From positions 1-20,037 of the IMG/VR virus record IMGVR_UViG_3300023179_000636: a DNA stretch of 20,037 nt, one strand, 5' to 3'. Shown here one piece after another: positions 2,206 to 17,861 of this stretch (the stretch's first letter is position 1; every line of letters starts with the position of its first letter). The translations under genes were made by a program, and so were the position numbers. Origin of the DNA: a virus. The notes beneath the pieces are model-generated. The model was not told the origin of the DNA. It was given only the letters and a program-made list of their open reading frames with translations, and searched no databases.

Positions 2206-3474
2206 ATGCCAAAGCCGCCGGCCCGACCACGCTCGCCCCGCCGGGCACCGGCGAAGCCGCGCAAGGCGGCCGAAGAGCGTTTCATCTCCGTGCTGGGCAC
2301 GCTCCTCGAGCCGTCGCCCTACGGCCGGTTGTCGGCGGCCGACGTGACGCCGGAAGTCGCCGTGCGTGTTTCGGCGATCTTCGCGGTGTGCCGGTTCATC
2401 GCCCAGGGCGTCGGCGTCATGCCGATCCAGATCGGCCGCACGCTGGCGAATGGACGGAAGGAGCGTTTCTCGCCGCCCTGCTCGTACACGATTCGCCAGC
2501 GTCCGAACGGCTGGCAGTCGCGATTCGATTTCATGACGCTCCAAGCTTATTGGACCGCGCTTCATGGGAACGGGTTCGCTCGCATCATGCCGGGCTCGCG
2601 TGGGTTCATGAGCACGCTTGTGCCAATGCACCCCACGCGCGTGAGCGTCCAGCAGCTCAGCGACTACACGATCTCCTACAAGTTCCTCGAGGCGAGCGGC
2701 ACGTGGTCGCCGCTGCGGCAGGACGAGGTGCTCCACTGGAAGTGGATGAGCGAGAACGGCATCTGGGGCATGGCTCCAAGCGAGATCTGCGCCACCTCGA
2801 TCTCACTGGCCCGTCAGTTGGACATCGCGGCCACTGCGTTTTGGAAGAACGGAGCGCGGCCCGACTTCCTCATCAAGACGGCCGAGAAAATCTCGGACCC
2901 GGCAATCGCGGAACTACGCGAGCAGTTCCGGCAGATGTACGGCGGAAACAACCGCGGTGCTCCTGGCGTCGTGTCGAGCAAGGTCGACATCGTGCCCATG
3001 CAGTCGAACACGATGGAACAGAGCCAGTACCAGGAACTGCGGGCCGCGATCCTGCCCGACGTGTGCCGGCACTGGGGCGTTCCTTCGACGCTGCTCGGTG
3101 ACGCCAAGATGGCGAGGTACTCAAACGTCGAGCAGGAGCATCTGTCGGCGCAGGTGTGGTGCTTGCTTCCGTGGCAGCACCGGATGGAAGGGCCTTTCGA
3201 CATGGCACTCCAGCCCGTCTACGGCGAAGACGTATACGTAAAGCTCGACAGTCGCGGGCTCCTGCGTGGCGACAACGCGAGCCGGGCCGCCCTGTATCAG
3301 TCGATGTTCAACATGGGCAGCATCACGCCCAACGAAATCCGCGACCTGGAAGACTTCGATCTGATCAGCGAGCCAGCCGCGGATCAGACGTTTATGCAGT
3401 TGGGTTTCTCGACGCTGAACGCGGCGGCGTCGCAGGCCGCAGCGCCGGCCGCAAGCAATGGAGGGAACGCATGA
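2206..3474 (+). CDS. phage portal protein, HK97 family
   Basis: The 422-residue product is the dodecameric portal at the unique prohead vertex, through which DNA enters and to which the tail attaches. The HK97-type pattern is clear: VSAIFAVCRFIAQGVGVMPIQI-like helix/strand at about 55-76, the DEVLHWKWMS segment near 173-182, the long helix ISLARQLDIAATAFWKNGARPDFLI around 199-223, and GVPSTLLGD at 291-299. The C-terminus is a low-complexity Ala tail. The ATG at 2206 has no strong SD; the 58-base leader can fold (GGGGCG at 2164-2169 against CGCCCC at 2197-2202). The stop overlaps the next ATG as ATGA at 3471-3474. Confidence 0.95.
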   Translation: MPKPPARPRSPRRAPAKPRKAAEERFISVLGTLLEPSPYGRLSAADVTPEVAVRVSAIFAVCRFIAQGVGVMPIQIGRTLANGRKERFSPPCSYTIRQRPNGWQSRFDFMTLQAYWTALHGNGFARIMPGSRGFMSTLVPMHPTRVSVQQLSDYTISYKFLEASGTWSPLRQDEVLHWKWMSENGIWGMAPSEICATSISLARQLDIAATAFWKNGARPDFLIKTAEKISDPAIAELREQFRQMYGGNNRGAPGVVSSKVDIVPMQSNTMEQSQYQELRAAILPDVCRHWGVPSTLLGDAKMARYSNVEQEHLSAQVWCLLPWQHRMEGPFDMALQPVYGEDVYVKLDSRGLLRGDNASRAALYQSMFNMGSITPNEIRDLEDFDLISEPAADQTFMQLGFSTLNAAASQAAAPAASNGGNA

Positions 3475-4460
3475 GCACCGTCGAAACGCGATATCTGTCG
3501 CAGGCAGAAGATGCGGACGTTGCATTGCACGTTGAGACGCGAGACGACGGCCGCCCAGTGATCGTGGGTATGGCCCCGCCGTGGAATAAGTGGTCGGTCG
3601 ACCTTGGCGGATTCAAGGAGCGTTTCATGCCGGGGGCGTTCCGGAAGTACCTGGACCGCTCGCCGAACGACCCGCGCGGCAAGGCCGACGTTGTTGCCAA
3701 GTACAACCACCAAGACTCCGCGGTGCTCGGCCGCACGACGAATGGCACGCTCGACATCCAAGAGACCGAAAAGGGGCTCGTATTTCGTGCCACGCCGCCG
3801 GTCGGAACTCCGACGACGGCGGAGGTCGTGCCGCTGATTCGCGACCGATACATCTACGGCTCGTCGTTCGCGTTTTCGCTCGTGGACGCCAAGGGCGAAC
3901 AGTGGGACGAAGACCCGGCCGGCAACGTCACGCGGACGATCACCGAGGCCGCGATCTATGACGTGTCGCCGGTGACGCACGCCGCCTACCCGAACAGCAC
4001 CGTGGGCCTTCGATCCCTGTCCGCATGGCGTGAAGCCCGCGGGCTCGTCCAGCACAGGGCCGAGGGCCGCGGGCTGCTGATCTCGCTGGACTATGACCAG
4101 ACCTTCACGGCCGCCCCCGGGCTGTGGCGATCCTTCGTCGCCATGGCAACCGCCGACGGCAATCAAGTCGTGTGCATCTCGCGGCGTGACGACACAGAGT
4201 CGAACCGCGAAGAAATCCGGTCGGCGTTCGCCGATCTCGACGTGTCGCAAGTCGTGCTGTGCGGACCCGAAACGCGAAAGCGAGCGGCAGCCGCTGCGGC
4301 CGGTCTCGACATCGACATTTGGATCGACGACTACCCGGAAGGAATCACAGACCAGGAGTTCCTCGCTCCGAAGTCTCGCGGCGTGACGTTCTCGACGCTG
4401 GCCGGTGCTCGAGCCGCTGCCGCCGCAGCGTCTGCACGTATGCGAATCGTCACCGGCTAG
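3471..4460 (+). CDS. prohead protease fused to a HAD-like phosphatase domain
   Basis: The 329-residue protein has two recognisable parts. Residues 1 to about 185 match the HK97 prohead protease family (S78), which matures the capsid: candidate catalytic His80 in KYNHQD, Ser132 in YGSSFAF, and the late motif DVSPVTHAAYPNS around 164-176. Residues about 200-329 read as a HAD-superfamily domain: motif I LDYDQT (D207, D209, T211), motif II Ser237 in CISR, a basic residue near K270 for motif III, and motif IV IWIDD (D286-D287). HAD proteins of this type are known as separate phage proteins; the fusion is the odd point. The start at 3471 forms an ATGA overlap with the portal stop. The stop (TAG, 4458-4460) is embedded in the next gene's SD. 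Confidence 0.87.
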   Translation: MSTVETRYLSQAEDADVALHVETRDDGRPVIVGMAPPWNKWSVDLGGFKERFMPGAFRKYLDRSPNDPRGKADVVAKYNHQDSAVLGRTTNGTLDIQETEKGLVFRATPPVGTPTTAEVVPLIRDRYIYGSSFAFSLVDAKGEQWDEDPAGNVTRTITEAAIYDVSPVTHAAYPNSTVGLRSLSAWREARGLVQHRAEGRGLLISLDYDQTFTAAPGLWRSFVAMATADGNQVVCISRRDDTESNREEIRSAFADLDVSQVVLCGPETRKRAAAAAAGLDIDIWIDDYPEGITDQEFLAPKSRGVTFSTLAGARAAAAAASARMRIVTG

Positions 4461-4469
4461 GAGGTCGCC

Positions 4470-4865
4470 ATGGTCAGCGTGCCGGTGCCAGCCGTCGTCG
4501 CCGCGAAGCAGGCCGCTTCGGACGCATCCGATGGGCTCGTCAACAAGGTGGCCGCGTTCATCGAGGCCGCGTCGCTCGCTGCCGCGGACGGGCTCACGTG
4601 GTCCGAGTTCGGCGAGCTCATGCTCTCGCTCTTGCGTCTGGTCATGACGAGCCTCGACATGGTGGCGAGCCTGACGGGGCCGCAGAAAAAGGCGCTCGCC
4701 GTGGACGCCGTGGCACGCCTGTTCGACGCCGTCGCTGACCAGGCGGTGCCGGCCGCTGTCTACCCGCTCTGGCTGATCGTGCGTTCGCCGGTGCGGGCAC
4801 TGGTCGTGGCGATCGCGTCCGGTGCCATCGAGCAACTGTTGCCGCTGGTGAGGGCCGCAGCATGA
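4470..4865 (+). CDS. hypothetical helical, probably membrane-associated protein
   Basis: The 131-residue product is not firmly recognised. It is Ala/Leu/Val-rich and predicted helical. A hydrophobic stretch near residues 95-117 could span or lie on a membrane. The GPQKK segment at 70-74 followed by amphipathic helices recalls small phage holin-like proteins, but this is an impression only. It has one of the best ribosome sites in the window (AGGAGGT at 4459-4465, 4 bases before the ATG), overlapping the protease stop. Its stop overlaps the next start (ATGA, 4862-4865). It opens the five-gene cassette between protease and capsid, and its neighbours suggest an envelope-related role. Confidence 0.8.
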   Translation: MVSVPVPAVVAAKQAASDASDGLVNKVAAFIEAASLAAADGLTWSEFGELMLSLLRLVMTSLDMVASLTGPQKKALAVDAVARLFDAVADQAVPAAVYPLWLIVRSPVRALVVAIASGAIEQLLPLVRAAA

Positions 4866-5428
4866 CGTGGCTGAGCGTGGCACTTGTGGTCGCCGCCGCG
4901 TATGCGATGGCTGGGCCGCAGATTCTCAAAAAGCTCAAAGAGGCCGCCGGCGTGGTCGACCTTCCGCACCTGGACCGACGGCACCTTGCCGGTGCTGCCT
5001 TGCTCTTGGCTGCCGCCCTCGTCTGGCGGTCTGGTGGATCGACCGAGCCGACGCCAGCCCCCGCCCCCGCTCCAGACGCGGCGATCGTGCTCCGTGGTGC
5101 GTTCGTCGGACCCGAGGCCGCGGTCGACGCCGCGACCGTGGCAGCGATGTTCGACGAGCTCGCGGCCGAAGTCGAGTGGGACGCCATGCAGGCCGAGCCG
5201 CTGATCCGTACCGGCGTCGCATTCGACGACCTCCGGGTCCGTGCGTTCGACCTACGGCTCCGTGGCGTGTCGCTTGGCGAGCGATACCCGCGAGCACGTG
5301 CCACGATCAAGGACTACCTGGACCGCACGGCAGGAACGTCTGGCGGGCCGCTGACGCCAGCCCAGCGGTCGGCGTGGGTGTCCGCATACCGCGAGGTCGC
5401 GAGGGCAGCAGCCGATGCCACGCGCTAG
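4862..5428 (+). CDS. hypothetical two-TM protein with Pro-rich linker and soluble domain
   Basis: The 188-residue product is not recognised. Seen: hydrophobic segments at about 2-17 and 42-56 (AGAALLLAAALVW), a Pro/Ala linker (TPAPAPAPDA, 64-73), then a 110-residue soluble, mostly helical domain ending in a basic helix. This layout (membrane hairpin, flexible linker, soluble domain) suits a protein that presents a domain from the inner membrane, as spanins and lysis accessory proteins do; that role is inferred from architecture and neighbours only. The start is an ATGA overlap with the upstream stop, and the 3' end overlaps the peptidase gene by 14 bases. Confidence 0.8.
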   Translation: MTWLSVALVVAAAYAMAGPQILKKLKEAAGVVDLPHLDRRHLAGAALLLAAALVWRSGGSTEPTPAPAPAPDAAIVLRGAFVGPEAAVDAATVAAMFDELAAEVEWDAMQAEPLIRTGVAFDDLRVRAFDLRLRGVSLGERYPRARATIKDYLDRTAGTSGGPLTPAQRSAWVSAYREVARAAADATR

Positions 5429-6497
5429 CCTCGCACGCTGGGGCGTGTTCCTGCTGCTTCTCGGATTGGCGGCAGCCGCCGTCGTCCACGGCATCTACGG
5501 CGACCGTGTGCCGGCGGGCCAGTACGGCTACACGCCAGACCCAGACGGCGTCCAGCGGTTCCTCTCCGAGCTCGAGCAACCGTTGTTCCGCGACGCCGGC
5601 GCGGAGACAATCCGCGAGGCAAAGGGCGTCGACACGTTCCTTTACCGGGCAGCAAACAAAGCCCACGTCGCCCTCTACGGGAAGCCGTGGGTCGTCGAAC
5701 GGCAGGGCATCGGTGACTGTGTCTCGTGGGGCTGGGCTCACGGCGTATACGTCGCCCAGTGCGTCGACTGGGAAACGGGCCGGCTTGCGAACCCGCCGCC
5801 GTTCCCATGCACGGAAGCCGTGTACGGCGGGAGCCGCGTCGAGGCCCGCGGCCGAAACGGCGACGGTTCGTCACCAGTTGGCGGATGGTCCGATGGATCG
5901 TACGGCGCTGCCGCCGCCCGATGGGTGCGTGACTGGGGCGTGGTCTACCGCGAGCAGGTTGGCGGGCACGATCTGCTCACATATTCGCCAGACCGCGCGA
6001 AACAATGGGGAGCGTACGGCAACGGCGGCAAGGGGGACGGCGGAAAGCTTGACACGATCGCGAAGAAGCATCCGGCACAGAACGTCGCGATGGTCAAGAC
6101 GTTCGCAGAGGCGGCCGCCGCGATCGAGGCCGGGTTCCCGGTTGCGGTCTGCTCGATGCAGGGTTTCGCGAGCGTGCGAGACCAGCACGGCTACGCAGCC
6201 GCCAGCGGTAGCTGGGCACACTGCATGTGCTTTGTCGCGGTGCGGTACGCCAAGAACGGTTCGCCAGACGACGCGCTGCTCTGTCTCAACTCATGGGGGC
6301 CTCGATGGATCAGCGGTCCAAGGTGGCCCGACGATATGCCGGAGGGCTCATTCTGGGTTCGTCGCACGATCGTTGAGCGGATGCTTGGCTCGCAGCCGGA
6401 CTCTTACGCCGTCGGCTCGGTCGCCGGGTTCGGCTGGCGTGATCTCGACAATGGCGGATTCTTGGCTCCATCACTGCCCGACAAGGTGATTCCATGA
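5415..6497 (+). CDS. membrane-anchored papain-like (C1-type) cysteine peptidase
   Basis: The 360-residue product has papain-type active-site order: Gln97 and Cys102 in QGIGDCVSWGWAHG, His269 in GSWAHCMCF, and Asn292 in CLNSWG, followed by a GSFWV closing strand typical of the fold. Residues about 10-26 form one hydrophobic Ala/Gly-rich segment with no obvious signal-peptidase site, so the enzyme is probably membrane-anchored or signal-anchored, with the catalytic domain outside the cytoplasm. Several extra cysteines (116, 132, 246, 270, 272, 290) could form disulfides. Such a peptidase is not a standard head gene; with four small membrane proteins around it, a lysis or envelope-degrading role is plausible. 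A virion-borne entry protease is the main alternative. Confidence 0.87.
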   Translation: MPRASLARWGVFLLLLGLAAAAVVHGIYGDRVPAGQYGYTPDPDGVQRFLSELEQPLFRDAGAETIREAKGVDTFLYRAANKAHVALYGKPWVVERQGIGDCVSWGWAHGVYVAQCVDWETGRLANPPPFPCTEAVYGGSRVEARGRNGDGSSPVGGWSDGSYGAAAARWVRDWGVVYREQVGGHDLLTYSPDRAKQWGAYGNGGKGDGGKLDTIAKKHPAQNVAMVKTFAEAAAAIEAGFPVAVCSMQGFASVRDQHGYAAASGSWAHCMCFVAVRYAKNGSPDDALLCLNSWGPRWISGPRWPDDMPEGSFWVRRTIVERMLGSQPDSYAVGSVAGFGWRDLDNGGFLAPSLPDKVIP

Positions 6498-7088: not shown

Positions 7089-8312
7089 ATGCCCAGCCCC
7101 AAGCTCGCCCAGCTTCAGGATGAAGCCGCCACGCTCACCAAGACCATCGCCGACCTTCGTGCCGTCGAGCCGAAGGACGACGCCGACGCGGCGAGCATCG
7201 CCGACCGTCTGGCTGCCGCCGAGAAGCGTGCCGACGAGGTGGCTGGTGCCGCCCAGCGTGAGCGTGATCTCGACGCTCGCCTCGCCGCCCTCCAGGCGGT
7301 GAGCGCTGCCAGCGAGCCGCGGTCGGTGGTCGAGCGTGCCAGCGACGACGACGCGTCGCAGCCGGTCGACATCAGGTCGGGCGTGCGGGCGTTCTCTTCG
7401 CCCAAGGCCGCTGCCGCTGTCGGCGGGTACCTCAAGCAGCTCTACACCGGCGAAATCCGGGCGATGGGCGAGACGAGCTCCACGTACGACCTGCTCGGTG
7501 CCGAGTACGTCGTGAAGGAACTGTACGGAGCGATCGTCAACCGCCTCCAGTACGCCTCGGTTGCGTTGCAACTCGCGACGGTTGTGCGGCCGACCGGTCA
7601 GAAGATCAGCTTCCCGAAGGTCGGCGACGCGACCGCGTCGTTCGTGGCCGAGGGCACGGCGACGACCGACCAGGACATCGCGACCAGCGCCAGCGACCTG
7701 ACTTTGTACGAGATGCGTGCATCGGTCGCGGTGTCGCGAAGCCTCATCGAGGATTCGCCGATCGACGTGGCCGGGCTCGTGGCCGAGCGTTTCGCGCTCT
7801 CCTACGCGACCAAGTTCGACAACGTGTGGCTTGGCGGCAACAACGCAAACCCGGCGATCACCGGGCTCGCGGCGGCGGTCGCCAACGGCAACACCATCAC
7901 GGTTGCGGCCAACGCCGCGACCACCGTGGCGAACCTGGCCGACGTGGTCGGCAAGGTTGACGAGACGATCATGGGATCGGCAGCGTGGGTCGTGAGCAAG
8001 GCCGGCTGGGTAGACCTGATGAAGTTGTGGTCTGCCCAGCAGACGACGCTCACCGTCGGCGGCGGGCGGATCGTGCCGAGTATCTTCGGTGCCCCGGTCT
8101 ACATCGTGAAGGGTCTGCCGGCGACCACGCTGGCTCTGTACGGCGACTTCGCGATGGCAACCGCGGTGGGCGTCAAGGCGAACGGGCTCGAGATCGAAGC
8201 CGGCCGCGAAATCCTCATGCGGAACCGGCAGGTGCTCTACGTCGCGAACACCCGGTTCGGCGTCGTGAACCACGCCCCCGAGTTCGTCGGTCGTCTCGCC
8301 AAGGCGTCCTGA
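7089..8312 (+). CDS. major capsid protein, HK97 family
   Basis: The 407-residue product is the main shell protein. Residues 1 to about 90 are a charged coiled coil (KLAQLQDEAATLTKTIADLRA onward) corresponding to the delta/scaffold domain that the prohead protease removes. Residues about 130-407 have the HK97-fold pattern: ELYGAIVNRLQYASVALQLATV, the E-loop-like region with FPKVGDATASFVAEG, SVAVSRSLIEDSPIDVAGLVAERFA, the GAPVYIVKGLPA segment and a C-terminal strand. The ATG at 7089 is chosen over an in-frame TTG at 7059 because AGGAGGG sits correctly before it. It is unusual that five genes separate it from its protease. A perfect hairpin follows the stop. Confidence 0.95.
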   Translation: MPSPKLAQLQDEAATLTKTIADLRAVEPKDDADAASIADRLAAAEKRADEVAGAAQRERDLDARLAALQAVSAASEPRSVVERASDDDASQPVDIRSGVRAFSSPKAAAAVGGYLKQLYTGEIRAMGETSSTYDLLGAEYVVKELYGAIVNRLQYASVALQLATVVRPTGQKISFPKVGDATASFVAEGTATTDQDIATSASDLTLYEMRASVAVSRSLIEDSPIDVAGLVAERFALSYATKFDNVWLGGNNANPAITGLAAAVANGNTITVAANAATTVANLADVVGKVDETIMGSAAWVVSKAGWVDLMKLWSAQQTTLTVGGGRIVPSIFGAPVYIVKGLPATTLALYGDFAMATAVGVKANGLEIEAGREILMRNRQVLYVANTRFGVVNHAPEFVGRLAKAS

Positions 8313-8390: not shown

Positions 8391-8609
8391 GTGGGGTCCA
8401 TTACGAGCCGGCGGCAGGTATGGCTCCTGCGTCCGTATCGCGGGCACCCTGCCGGCACCGTGCTCTCGGTCACCCAAGAGCTCGCGACGCGGCTTGTCGT
8501 CGGCAACTGGGCCACGTTCGTGGAGCCTGGCTTGATGGCGGCGAGCGTGCCACGCCATGAGCGAGCGGTAGCCACGCACCACGCCGAGACGCGCGGAGGC
8601 ATTCAATGA
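8391..8609 (+). CDS. small hypothetical head-region protein
   Basis: The 72-residue product has the pattern seen in small phage proteins encoded next to capsid genes: WLLRPYRGHPAGTVLSV, then a helix with a pair of small residues (ELATRLVVGNWATFVEP). Its role is unknown; a head-tail joining or decoration role is only suggested by position. The start is GTG at 8391 with AGGAG at 8380-8384, 6 bases upstream. An ATG at 8377 lies in another frame. The stop overlaps the connector start (ATGA, 8606-8609). Confidence 0.75.
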   Translation: MGSITSRRQVWLLRPYRGHPAGTVLSVTQELATRLVVGNWATFVEPGLMAASVPRHERAVATHHAETRGGIQ

Positions 8610-16030: not shown

Positions 16031-16069
16031 TTTGGCAGCATTGCGATACGCCACGCATGGAGGTTGCCG

Positions 16070-17074
16070 ATGGCCCCGGCCGATGTGCTCACCGACATGG
16101 CACGCGAGCTCTGCCGCAGGTGGCCGGACGCCCCAGCCCGGACGCTTGCACGCCGGCTAGCCAAGGCCAGCAACGGCGCTCTGACGATCGACCAGGCACG
16201 CGCCCGCATCGCGCGGCAGTTTGGACTGTGGGGGAAACAAGCCCGGAAGAAAATAAAGTCGGCTGCACCGCGACAACCTCGCGCCGCCGGCCAGGTGTAC
16301 GAGATGCCGGCAAGCATCGCCGAGCCGTGGACGCCGCACCGCATGGACTTGGTCGGCACGGTCGGCATTCTCTCCGACGTTCACGTGCCGTATCACTCCG
16401 AGCTCGCCGTGTCGGCTGCGGTGAACTACCTGCGACAGCAGGAGCTCGCAGGTCTGGTGCTCAACGGCGACGTGTGCGACTTCTACGCGATATCGCGTTA
16501 CCTAAAAGACCCGACGCAACGCGACTTCAAGGGCGAGCTCGAGGCGGTGCGGCAGTTCCTTGGGTGGATTCGGCAGCAGTTCCCGACCATCCCCATCGTC
16601 CTAAAAGCCGGGAACCACGAGGAGCGCTGGAAGCATTGGCTTTGGCAGCACGCCCCCGAGATTGCCGACGAGCCAGTGATGAGCCTTACCGGCTGGCTGC
16701 GGCTTGGCGAACACGACATCACGCTCGTCGAGGATCAGCGGCCGATCATGGTCGGGAAGCTGCCCGTTTTCCACGGCCACGAGCTTCCGCGTGGGTTCGC
16801 CGCGCCGGTCAACGCCGCACGCGGGCTATGGCTGCGGCTCAAGTCTTCCGGCCTTGCCGGCCACCATCATCGAACCAGCAACCATACCGAGGCAGACTGG
16901 AAGCGACGCGAAACGGCAGCGTGGTCAACTGGATGCCTGTGCGACCTGACGCCGGAATACTCGCGAGTCAACGGCTGGAACTGGGGATTCGCGACAGTAA
17001 CCGTTCACGCCGGCGGCGACTTTGACGTTGAAAATCTTCGCATCACTTCCGACGGCACGGTGAGGACCGCATGA
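16070..17074 (+). CDS. calcineurin-like metallophosphoesterase
   Basis: The 334-residue product has the full metallophosphoesterase motif set: SDVH (D103, H105), GDVCD (D134, D137), GNHEE (N182, H183), HGHE (H235-H237) and GHHH (264-267). These residues bind two metal ions and hydrolyse phosphomono- or diesters. The substrate is unknown: nucleic acid ends, cyclic nucleotides and phosphoproteins are all possible. Residues 1 to about 85 form a basic helical extension (ARRLAKASNGALTIDQARARIARQFG) that looks like a helix-turn-helix or helical DNA-contact module. ATG 16070 is preferred over TTG 16064 because GGAGG (16059-16063) sits 6 bases upstream. Confidence 0.88.
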   Translation: MAPADVLTDMARELCRRWPDAPARTLARRLAKASNGALTIDQARARIARQFGLWGKQARKKIKSAAPRQPRAAGQVYEMPASIAEPWTPHRMDLVGTVGILSDVHVPYHSELAVSAAVNYLRQQELAGLVLNGDVCDFYAISRYLKDPTQRDFKGELEAVRQFLGWIRQQFPTIPIVLKAGNHEERWKHWLWQHAPEIADEPVMSLTGWLRLGEHDITLVEDQRPIMVGKLPVFHGHELPRGFAAPVNAARGLWLRLKSSGLAGHHHRTSNHTEADWKRRETAAWSTGCLCDLTPEYSRVNGWNWGFATVTVHAGGDFDVENLRITSDGTVRTA

Positions 17075-17364
17075 TCCACCACTTCCAGATCCGCGGGCGG
17101 CGTGTCGTCTGGAAGTACGCCAGGCTGCGAGGCCGCGCCGATGGGTGGTCGATCACGCCGGACGACCGCCTGCCTGACGGCGAGCGGAAGGTGCTGATCT
17201 CCGACAAGCTCCGCGGTCGTGCTCGGCTTGAGACCGAGGTACACGAGGCGCTGCACCAACTGTTTCCCGATCTGTCGGAGGAAACTGTCACCAACGCCGG
17301 CCGCGACATCGCACGAATTCTTTGGTCGCTACAGTACCGCATCACGCAAGAGGAAAACGCATGA
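17071..17364 (+). CDS. small HExxH zincin-like protein
   Basis: The 97-residue product contains HEALH at 58-62 with Glu70 in the following SEE as candidate third ligand, in the context LETEVHEALHQLFPDLSEE, which is the pattern of minimal zinc metallopeptidases. A C-terminal helix (AGRDIARILWSL) follows. Small phage proteins with this HEALH-FPDLSEE layout exist, as I recall, but have no defined function. It is ATGA-coupled to the phosphoesterase and to the next gene (17361-17364), so the three products are made together. Confidence 0.8.
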   Translation: MIHHFQIRGRRVVWKYARLRGRADGWSITPDDRLPDGERKVLISDKLRGRARLETEVHEALHQLFPDLSEETVTNAGRDIARILWSLQYRITQEENA

Positions 17365-17861
17365 CCGAGCTTGAGGCTGCCAACCACGCCCTCCGATCCG
17401 CCGTCGAGTCACGGCTTGCCGGAACCGATCCGGCACCGTCCGAGACGTACAGCGAGTGGACGCCGCCCGACTACGCGGCGCGTGTTGAGGCGGTGAAGGG
17501 CTTCGCCCGGCTCGTCGAGGATGCGAAGCCCGCGCGGCTCGCAAGGGCGACGCATCCAACGAGTCAGGCGTTCTACGATCTGTGCGATCAGATCAAGGAC
17601 ATGCACCGACGGAAGTCAGCCGACTACGGCTCCGCGACCGACCCGCTCGCCAACATCCGCAACGGTGCCGAGTTCGTCGGCATCGAGGCGTGGCGTGCCG
17701 CGATGGTCAGACTCAGCGACAAGGTCACGCGGCTGCAAACCTACTGCCGCACCGGACAGCTCGAGCACGAAGGCGTCGAGGACACGCTGATGGATCTCGC
17801 GTCCTACTCGCTGCTGGTGCTGCTTACGCACCGCGAGGCCCACCACGCAGGGGACGCGTGA
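17361..17861 (+). CDS. MazG/DUF1599-like nucleotide pyrophosphohydrolase-type protein
   Basis: The 166-residue product has a C-terminal domain like DUF1599/MazG-type proteins: RRKSADYGSATDPLANIR (83-100), AMVRLSDKVTRL (114-125) and GVEDTLMDLASYSLLVLL (138-155) with acidic residues E140, D141 and D145 as candidate metal ligands. These families cleave or bind non-canonical or free nucleotides; substrate here is unknown. Residues 1-65 are a less conserved helical extension. Placement at the 3' end of the late operon rather than with replication genes is worth noting. ATGA at 17361 and TGATG at 17859-17863 couple it on both sides. Confidence 0.78.
   Translation: MTELEAANHALRSAVESRLAGTDPAPSETYSEWTPPDYAARVEAVKGFARLVEDAKPARLARATHPTSQAFYDLCDQIKDMHRRKSADYGSATDPLANIRNGAEFVGIEAWRAAMVRLSDKVTRLQTYCRTGQLEHEGVEDTLMDLASYSLLVLLTHREAHHAGDA

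Follow-up and report, generated by a model that had tools for sequence, protein, structure and literature searches.

A predicted HAD phosphatase domain inserted ahead of the C-terminal tail of a phage prohead protease

Nudix domains occur fused to MuF, to the portal and to the capsid-processing serine peptidase, and are read as head-packaged by Iyer and colleagues (PMC9503650). Similarly, 2H and PBECR domains have been described as fusions to MuF or portal (PMC5512222). The fusion of an enzyme to a head carrier is already known for Nudix, and the HAD domain found here on a head protease and on a portal appears to be a new variant of that arrangement. Literature searches, covering mainly openly accessible papers, returned no report of a HAD-prohead protease fusion or of a HAD on these carriers.

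An S78 protease and a HAD domain in one reading frame

The window, i.e. the whole stretch of 20,037 nucleotides of viral DNA analysed here, carries a head module in the order small terminase, TerL, portal, protease-HAD, small genes, papain-like ORF and HK97-type major capsid protein, followed by connector and tail genes and a tyrosine integrase (Table 1). Three planctomycete MAG contigs (L139-L141) suggest that the host group is Planctomycetes. The 360-residue ORF between the protease and capsid genes (5415-6497, + strand) is papain-like by eye (QGIGDCVSWGWAHG, SWAHCMCF, LNSWGPRW); it has no match in Pfam, PHROG, NCBIfam or PDB sequences and is kept in most related head modules. Further along the + strand of the window, a metallophosphoesterase (16064-17074; phrog_221, E 4e-30) represents a second phosphoesterase in the same phage, and the frame at 17322-17861 has a weak DUF1599 match.

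Table 1. Coordinates of the features of the head module in the window
Feature	Position	Strand	Basis
S78 prohead protease with HAD inserted ahead of its C-terminal tail	3471-4460	+	329 aa plus stop, single frame without internal stop
S78 protease domain, residues 21-180	3531-4010 (His80 3708-3710, Ser132 3864-3866)	+	Pfam, TIGR01543, invariant H80/S132, T4 gp21 fold match
Linker, residues 188-201, with candidate release site A-E-G-R200 / G201	4032-4073 (site between 4070 and 4071)	+	Likeness to capsid-site matrix
HAD domain, residues ~201-298	4071-4364	+	phrog_4919, phrog_4256, invariant motifs, AF2 model, T4 Pnkp phosphatase match
HAD motif positions	D207-x-D209-x-T211 4089-4103; S237 4179-4181; R239 4185-4187; K270 4278-4280; D286-D287 4326-4331	+	
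C-terminal tail of the protease (residues 308-329), a basic helix rich in Ala; probable encapsidation signal	4392-4457	+	HAD-less L291, tail profile test; function by analogy (PMC7411985)
Portal protein; alternative HAD carrier in related phages	2206-3474	+	Pfam Phage_portal E 9e-71
HK97-type major capsid protein, with predicted maturation site R124 / A125	7089-8312 (site 7460 / 7461)	+	Pfam Phage_capsid E 8e-27; HK97 mature chain alignment; conserved ExR-AMGE
p131, next gene 3' of the HAD in fused and separate states; its position locates the empty site where relatives lack the HAD	4470-4865	+	

An earlier note, made from the sequence alone, had read the protease-HAD gene as one uninterrupted frame carrying an S78-type protease with His80 and Ser132 and a HAD-like domain with intact catalytic residues. 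This reading holds: the frame contains no stop over its 329 residues, and its parts have separate Pfam and PHROG matches. Residues 21-180 match Pfam PF04586 with 103 bits against a cut-off of 21 (E 2.3e-29), and the NCBIfam model TIGR01543 (proheadase_HK97) scores 67 bits against a cut-off of 59. Both His80 and Ser132 are invariant in an alignment of 13 fusions, and the corresponding columns are likewise invariant in a more diverse set of 10 S78 proteins. The gene sits between those of the portal and of the capsid protein, the latter having ~124 residues, a scaffold-like N-terminal part, before its predicted maturation site. By profile, catalytic residues and gene position, the N-terminal part belongs to the S78 / HK97 prohead proteases and is predicted to cleave the capsid protein. 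The model of the full-length fusion is weaker (pLDDT 62), and its N-terminal part matches gp21, the head protease of T4 (Z 8.3).

The motifs of the C-terminal part are D207-Y-D209-Q-T211 (motif I), S237 (II), K270 (III) and D286-D287 (IV). No variation is seen at D207, D209, T211, S/T237, R239, K270, D286 or D287 across 83 distinct fused sequences, apart from a single one that is gapped at the last three. HMMER matches this part to phrog_4919 (E 7.6e-17) and phrog_4256 (E 1.1e-13), two families of free-standing proteins of unknown function. In Pfam and NCBIfam nothing falls under E 0.001, and the likeness to the T4 Pnkp family is one of fold alone. A search of PDB sequences with the HAD profile gave one designed protein (E 5e-5), weak class B acid phosphatases (E 0.3) and nothing else. 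Structure prediction bore out the proposed fold: AF2 modeled the HAD part alone, from an alignment of 73 relatives, with a pLDDT of 93.6, and its best solved matches are HAD phosphatases. The top structure is the T4 Pnkp 3'-phosphatase (Z 10.1, 97 residues, 2.7 Å), followed by Pnkp1 of the Rnl/Hen1 RNA-repair complex (Z 9.3) and by other HADs at 8.8 and lower. As modeled, the insert folds as a cap-less HAD. Its motifs I (DxDx[TV]), II (S/T), III (K) and IV (DD), together with the predicted Rossmann-like fold, place it in the HAD superfamily, with a predicted Mg-dependent phosphatase activity.

Insertion ahead of the protease tail

The earlier note had placed the HAD where an inhibitory tail or a scaffold might sit. 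This part of its reading does not stand, since the tail is kept after the HAD. L291, a relative lacking the HAD, has a short stretch behind its protease core and then RSLAGAKAAAAAAVARMRAHAG, nearly identical to the post-HAD tail of the fusions; because this HAD-less protease keeps the tail, the insertion point of the HAD lies between core and tail. A profile built on the tails of separate proteases gave a median of 13.9 bits for fused tails and 3.5 bits for the tails of separate HADs. The value of 13.9 bits was reached by 23 of 3100 tail shuffles and by none of 283 Ala-rich control tails, the sequences scored being related and the counts not independent. Given the two medians, an origin of the fused tail from the separate HAD's own tail is not supported.

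Many S78 relatives end in short, mostly basic tails. The head protease of phage SPN3US likely carries its packaging signal in a C-terminal propeptide (PMC7411985). By analogy, the tail of the window's protease is likely an encapsidation signal.

Additional sequence next to the S78 core was also observed in other relatives. In L299, the S78 frame starting at about 5001 continues, C-terminal of the core, with a second protease domain of the ClpP type (PF00574, E 1e-31). The S78 proteases of L312, L313, L320 and L321 have 324-423 additional residues ahead of a short basic tail, and one of these four ORFs, scanned against Pfam, gave no match. The gap between S78 core and tail looks tolerant of cargo, as the ClpP domain of L299 may illustrate.

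Four states of the HAD at the head locus

Relatives of the window carry the HAD at the head locus in one of four states: within the protease, at the portal C-terminus, as a separate neighbour gene, or not at all; each locus has one HAD or none. The HAD lies in one frame with a head protein in 86 distinct complete S78-HAD and 50 distinct complete portal-HAD ORFs, most relatives being contig fragments, so that sequence counts do not equal independent events. The S78-HAD sequences come from IMG/VR contigs of many metagenomes and from one Planctomycetaceae MAG (L139), and their loci follow the order TerL, portal, S78-HAD, p131, p188, papain-like ORF and capsid protein, or a shorter version of it. 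A sequencing error joining two genes, which the earlier note had named as a way to be wrong, or an error of assembly does not account for the same open fusion in so many sequences and sources. Likewise, a chance match to HAD motifs is at odds with the independent support from PHROG matches, invariant residues, the AF2 model and structure matches, and we give an artefact of either kind practically no weight. In the L139 prophage, a frame starting at 8527 (+ strand), upstream of the capsid gene, has a trypsin-like GDSGGPI motif.

In the portal-HAD group, which also includes the MAG contig L140 (incomplete at its end), the HAD occupies the C-terminus of the portal and the protease is separate. 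The portal domain of these proteins is strong (Pfam E 7e-89 in L198). L141 and L163-L173 form a sister group that encodes the HAD separately, in a gene 3' of the protease that has its own ribosome site; motif IV of the separate HADs of L171 and L173 reads D-N instead of D-D. In L314 and L319, relatives of the separate-HAD group, the HAD is cleanly missing between the same flanks. These two loci have a frame of ~50 residues with CxC pairs (Zn-ribbon-like), overlapping the end of the separate protease gene ahead of p131 (3355-3513 in L314 and 5677-5835 in L319, + strand). L177 may perhaps represent a second protease fusion.

In the tree, the HADs of head modules form one clade (98/93) that excludes the free-standing relatives found in other phages and in bacteria, the alignment having ~100 columns and the inner forks being weak. 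The free-standing proteins of phrog_4919 and phrog_4256 fall outside this clade (phiEco32 is row L162). A scan of 392 genomes from the phylum of a source MAG recovered, beyond that MAG, weak matches in only 5, indicating that the HAD family is rare in that phylum. Pairwise identities of the HAD do not track those of the carriers: 68% in the HAD for 47% in the protease, 83% for 96%, and 82% for 54% in the portal. This fits a HAD exchanged as a unit, an accessory cassette.

The HAD could instead serve the protease structurally or in regulation, through the timing of its activity, as an internal scaffold or in metal or phosphate binding, with phosphatase activity secondary. Its conserved place beside the protease in one clade is compatible with such a role, as is the retention of 68% HAD identity in pairs whose proteases are 47% identical. 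However, the close relatives L291, L314 and L319 manage without a HAD, the portal carries it in other phages, and every catalytic residue is kept, so that we consider this role improbable.

Candidate release site and proposed role

In the portal-HAD proteins, the linker is Pro/Ala-rich and freely variable except directly before the HAD, where it mostly reads RSxxExR-A[ML]-T-[ILV]-S. The capsid proteins of the same phages have, at the expected junction, VExR followed by A, V or T, and by Q. Most capsid sites of S78-HAD phages read R-AMGE, represented in the window by R124-A125, and the mature N-terminus of HK97 extrapolates to ~residue 127 of the window's capsid protein. Using a matrix derived from capsid sites alone, each capsid site being picked by conservation and position, the portal-HAD linker takes first place in 20 of 52 proteins, each with ~625 positions, against an expectation of 1.6 and with a median rank of 2. 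The S78-HAD linker does so in 11 of 62 proteins (3.4 expected), with a median rank of 3 of ~331; in both sets the sequences are related and the counts not independent. The fit of S78-HAD linkers to the capsid site is only moderate, and some end in K-P or Q-G, which counts against cleavage. The resemblance to the capsid maturation site, strongest in portal-HAD proteins, suggests release by the phage's own protease; as evidence of release it is suggestive, not proof. The chances that the HAD is cut free from the portal may be about even, and cutting from the S78 protease would be somewhat less probable than that. It is unlikely that portal-HAD genes contain a second start of translation for the HAD, as the M at the HAD start is often L and the preceding R-A is kept.

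The linker motif also bears on the alternative that the HAD is an accessory phosphatase of the infected-cell cytoplasm, its fusion to an upstream head gene being tolerated and its packaging incidental. The free-standing relatives in other phages are found among replication or unknown genes, away from head genes, and sister phages have the HAD as a plain separate gene, both of which agree with cytoplasmic action. On the other hand, simple loss of a stop codon would not place the HAD within the protease before a retained tail, two different procapsid proteins act as carriers, and the linker motif is conserved in portal-HAD proteins. On balance, we regard this alternative as unlikely, while still giving it real weight.

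The reading that seems to be supported more favorably is that of an accessory HAD phosphatase loaded into the procapsid via the head-maturation protease, in line with the co-packaging or self-cleavage put forward in the earlier note. As a whole we give this explanation slightly better than even chances, and encapsidation of the HAD, taken by itself, appears probable. Invariant catalytic residues, a HAD placed ahead of a kept tail, two carriers that both enter the procapsid, the precise presence or absence of the HAD in sister phages, an identity decoupled from that of the carrier, the capsid-site-like linker, the fold match to T4 Pnkp and the published enzymes on portal and capsid-processing peptidase count for this explanation, whereas no targeting feature was identified on the HAD of the separate-gene sisters, which counts against it. 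The HAD would enter the procapsid as part of the protease, between the catalytic core and the tail that would target the protease there. Once active, the protease would process the capsid protein to its mature form, and cleavage of the linker ahead of the HAD by the same enzyme may leave a small, free, cap-less HAD phosphatase inside the head. In the head, or after ejection with the DNA, this enzyme might strip phosphates from nucleic-acid ends or nucleotides. Such substrates are suggested by the proximity of the HAD model to Pnkp and by free-standing relatives that, in some other phages, lie within a few genes of DNA polymerase, primase or RNA ligase; on its own, a nucleic acid or nucleotide substrate is a tentative guess. 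Related phages have the same enzyme on the portal behind a capsid-site-like linker, as a neighbour gene, or not at all.

The C-terminal end of the portal faces the head lumen, and portals are not ejected. Since protease and portal are both procapsid components, a HAD on either carrier should start inside the procapsid. Prohead 1 of HK97 contains about 60 proteases and 12 portals, and that of D3 about 90 proteases, none of which is left in Prohead 2 (PMC12749128). Together, these points imply that a HAD left uncut would remain attached to the portal or be lost along with the protease, which weighs against the favored explanation. An extended proposal is that of capsid cargo in the form of a transferable module. 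A HAD acting as a 3'-end phosphatase would enter the head either within the protease, ahead of its encapsidation tail, or on the portal behind a linker that the protease can cleave. Freed in the head by the maturation protease, it would leave with the DNA and, as infection begins, repair nucleic-acid ends blocked by phosphate or break down a defence nucleotide. This we consider rather doubtful.

If loaded into heads, a phosphatase would join the enzymes for which phages appear to use fusion as a loading route. Among close relatives the carrier is the only difference (protease, portal, separate gene or none), which makes loading, release and benefit directly testable, and the fusions provide a setting for phrog_4919 and phrog_4256, both large families of phage proteins whose function is unknown. 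These families (e.g. phiEco32 gp47) are clearly homologous to the HAD part, but their members are unfused and lie outside the head module. The 3'-phosphatase domain of T4 polynucleotide kinase/phosphatase is, like the insert, a cap-less HAD with the same four motifs. Compared to it, the HAD described here has 14-17% identity, lacks a kinase domain and is a predicted phosphatase, with class B acid phosphatase and MDP-1 following within 1.5-2 Z units of the T4 Pnkp match.

XkdF proteins belong to another family of head proteases (PMC7824862). In BFVD, the predicted structures of proteins annotated as XkdF from uncultured Caudovirales (301-531 residues) have a region matching the HAD model with TMq 0.57-0.69 and 16-24% identity. 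They are possibly independent head-protease-HAD fusions, a lead suggesting that similar fusions may exist elsewhere unnoticed; BFVD entries annotated 'Prohead protease', with TMq about 0.5, were not counted as HAD fusions.

The closest parallels are the head-packaged enzyme fusions with NudE-like Nudix, 2H, PBECR and ART domains which likewise have an intact enzyme domain on a portal or head protease and are read as packaged and injected (PMC5512222, PMC9503650). Compared to the fusions as described there, the present ones differ in the HAD domain itself, in its position before the protease tail rather than appended to the protein, in the switch of carrier within one phage group, and in the candidate release site for the phage's own protease.
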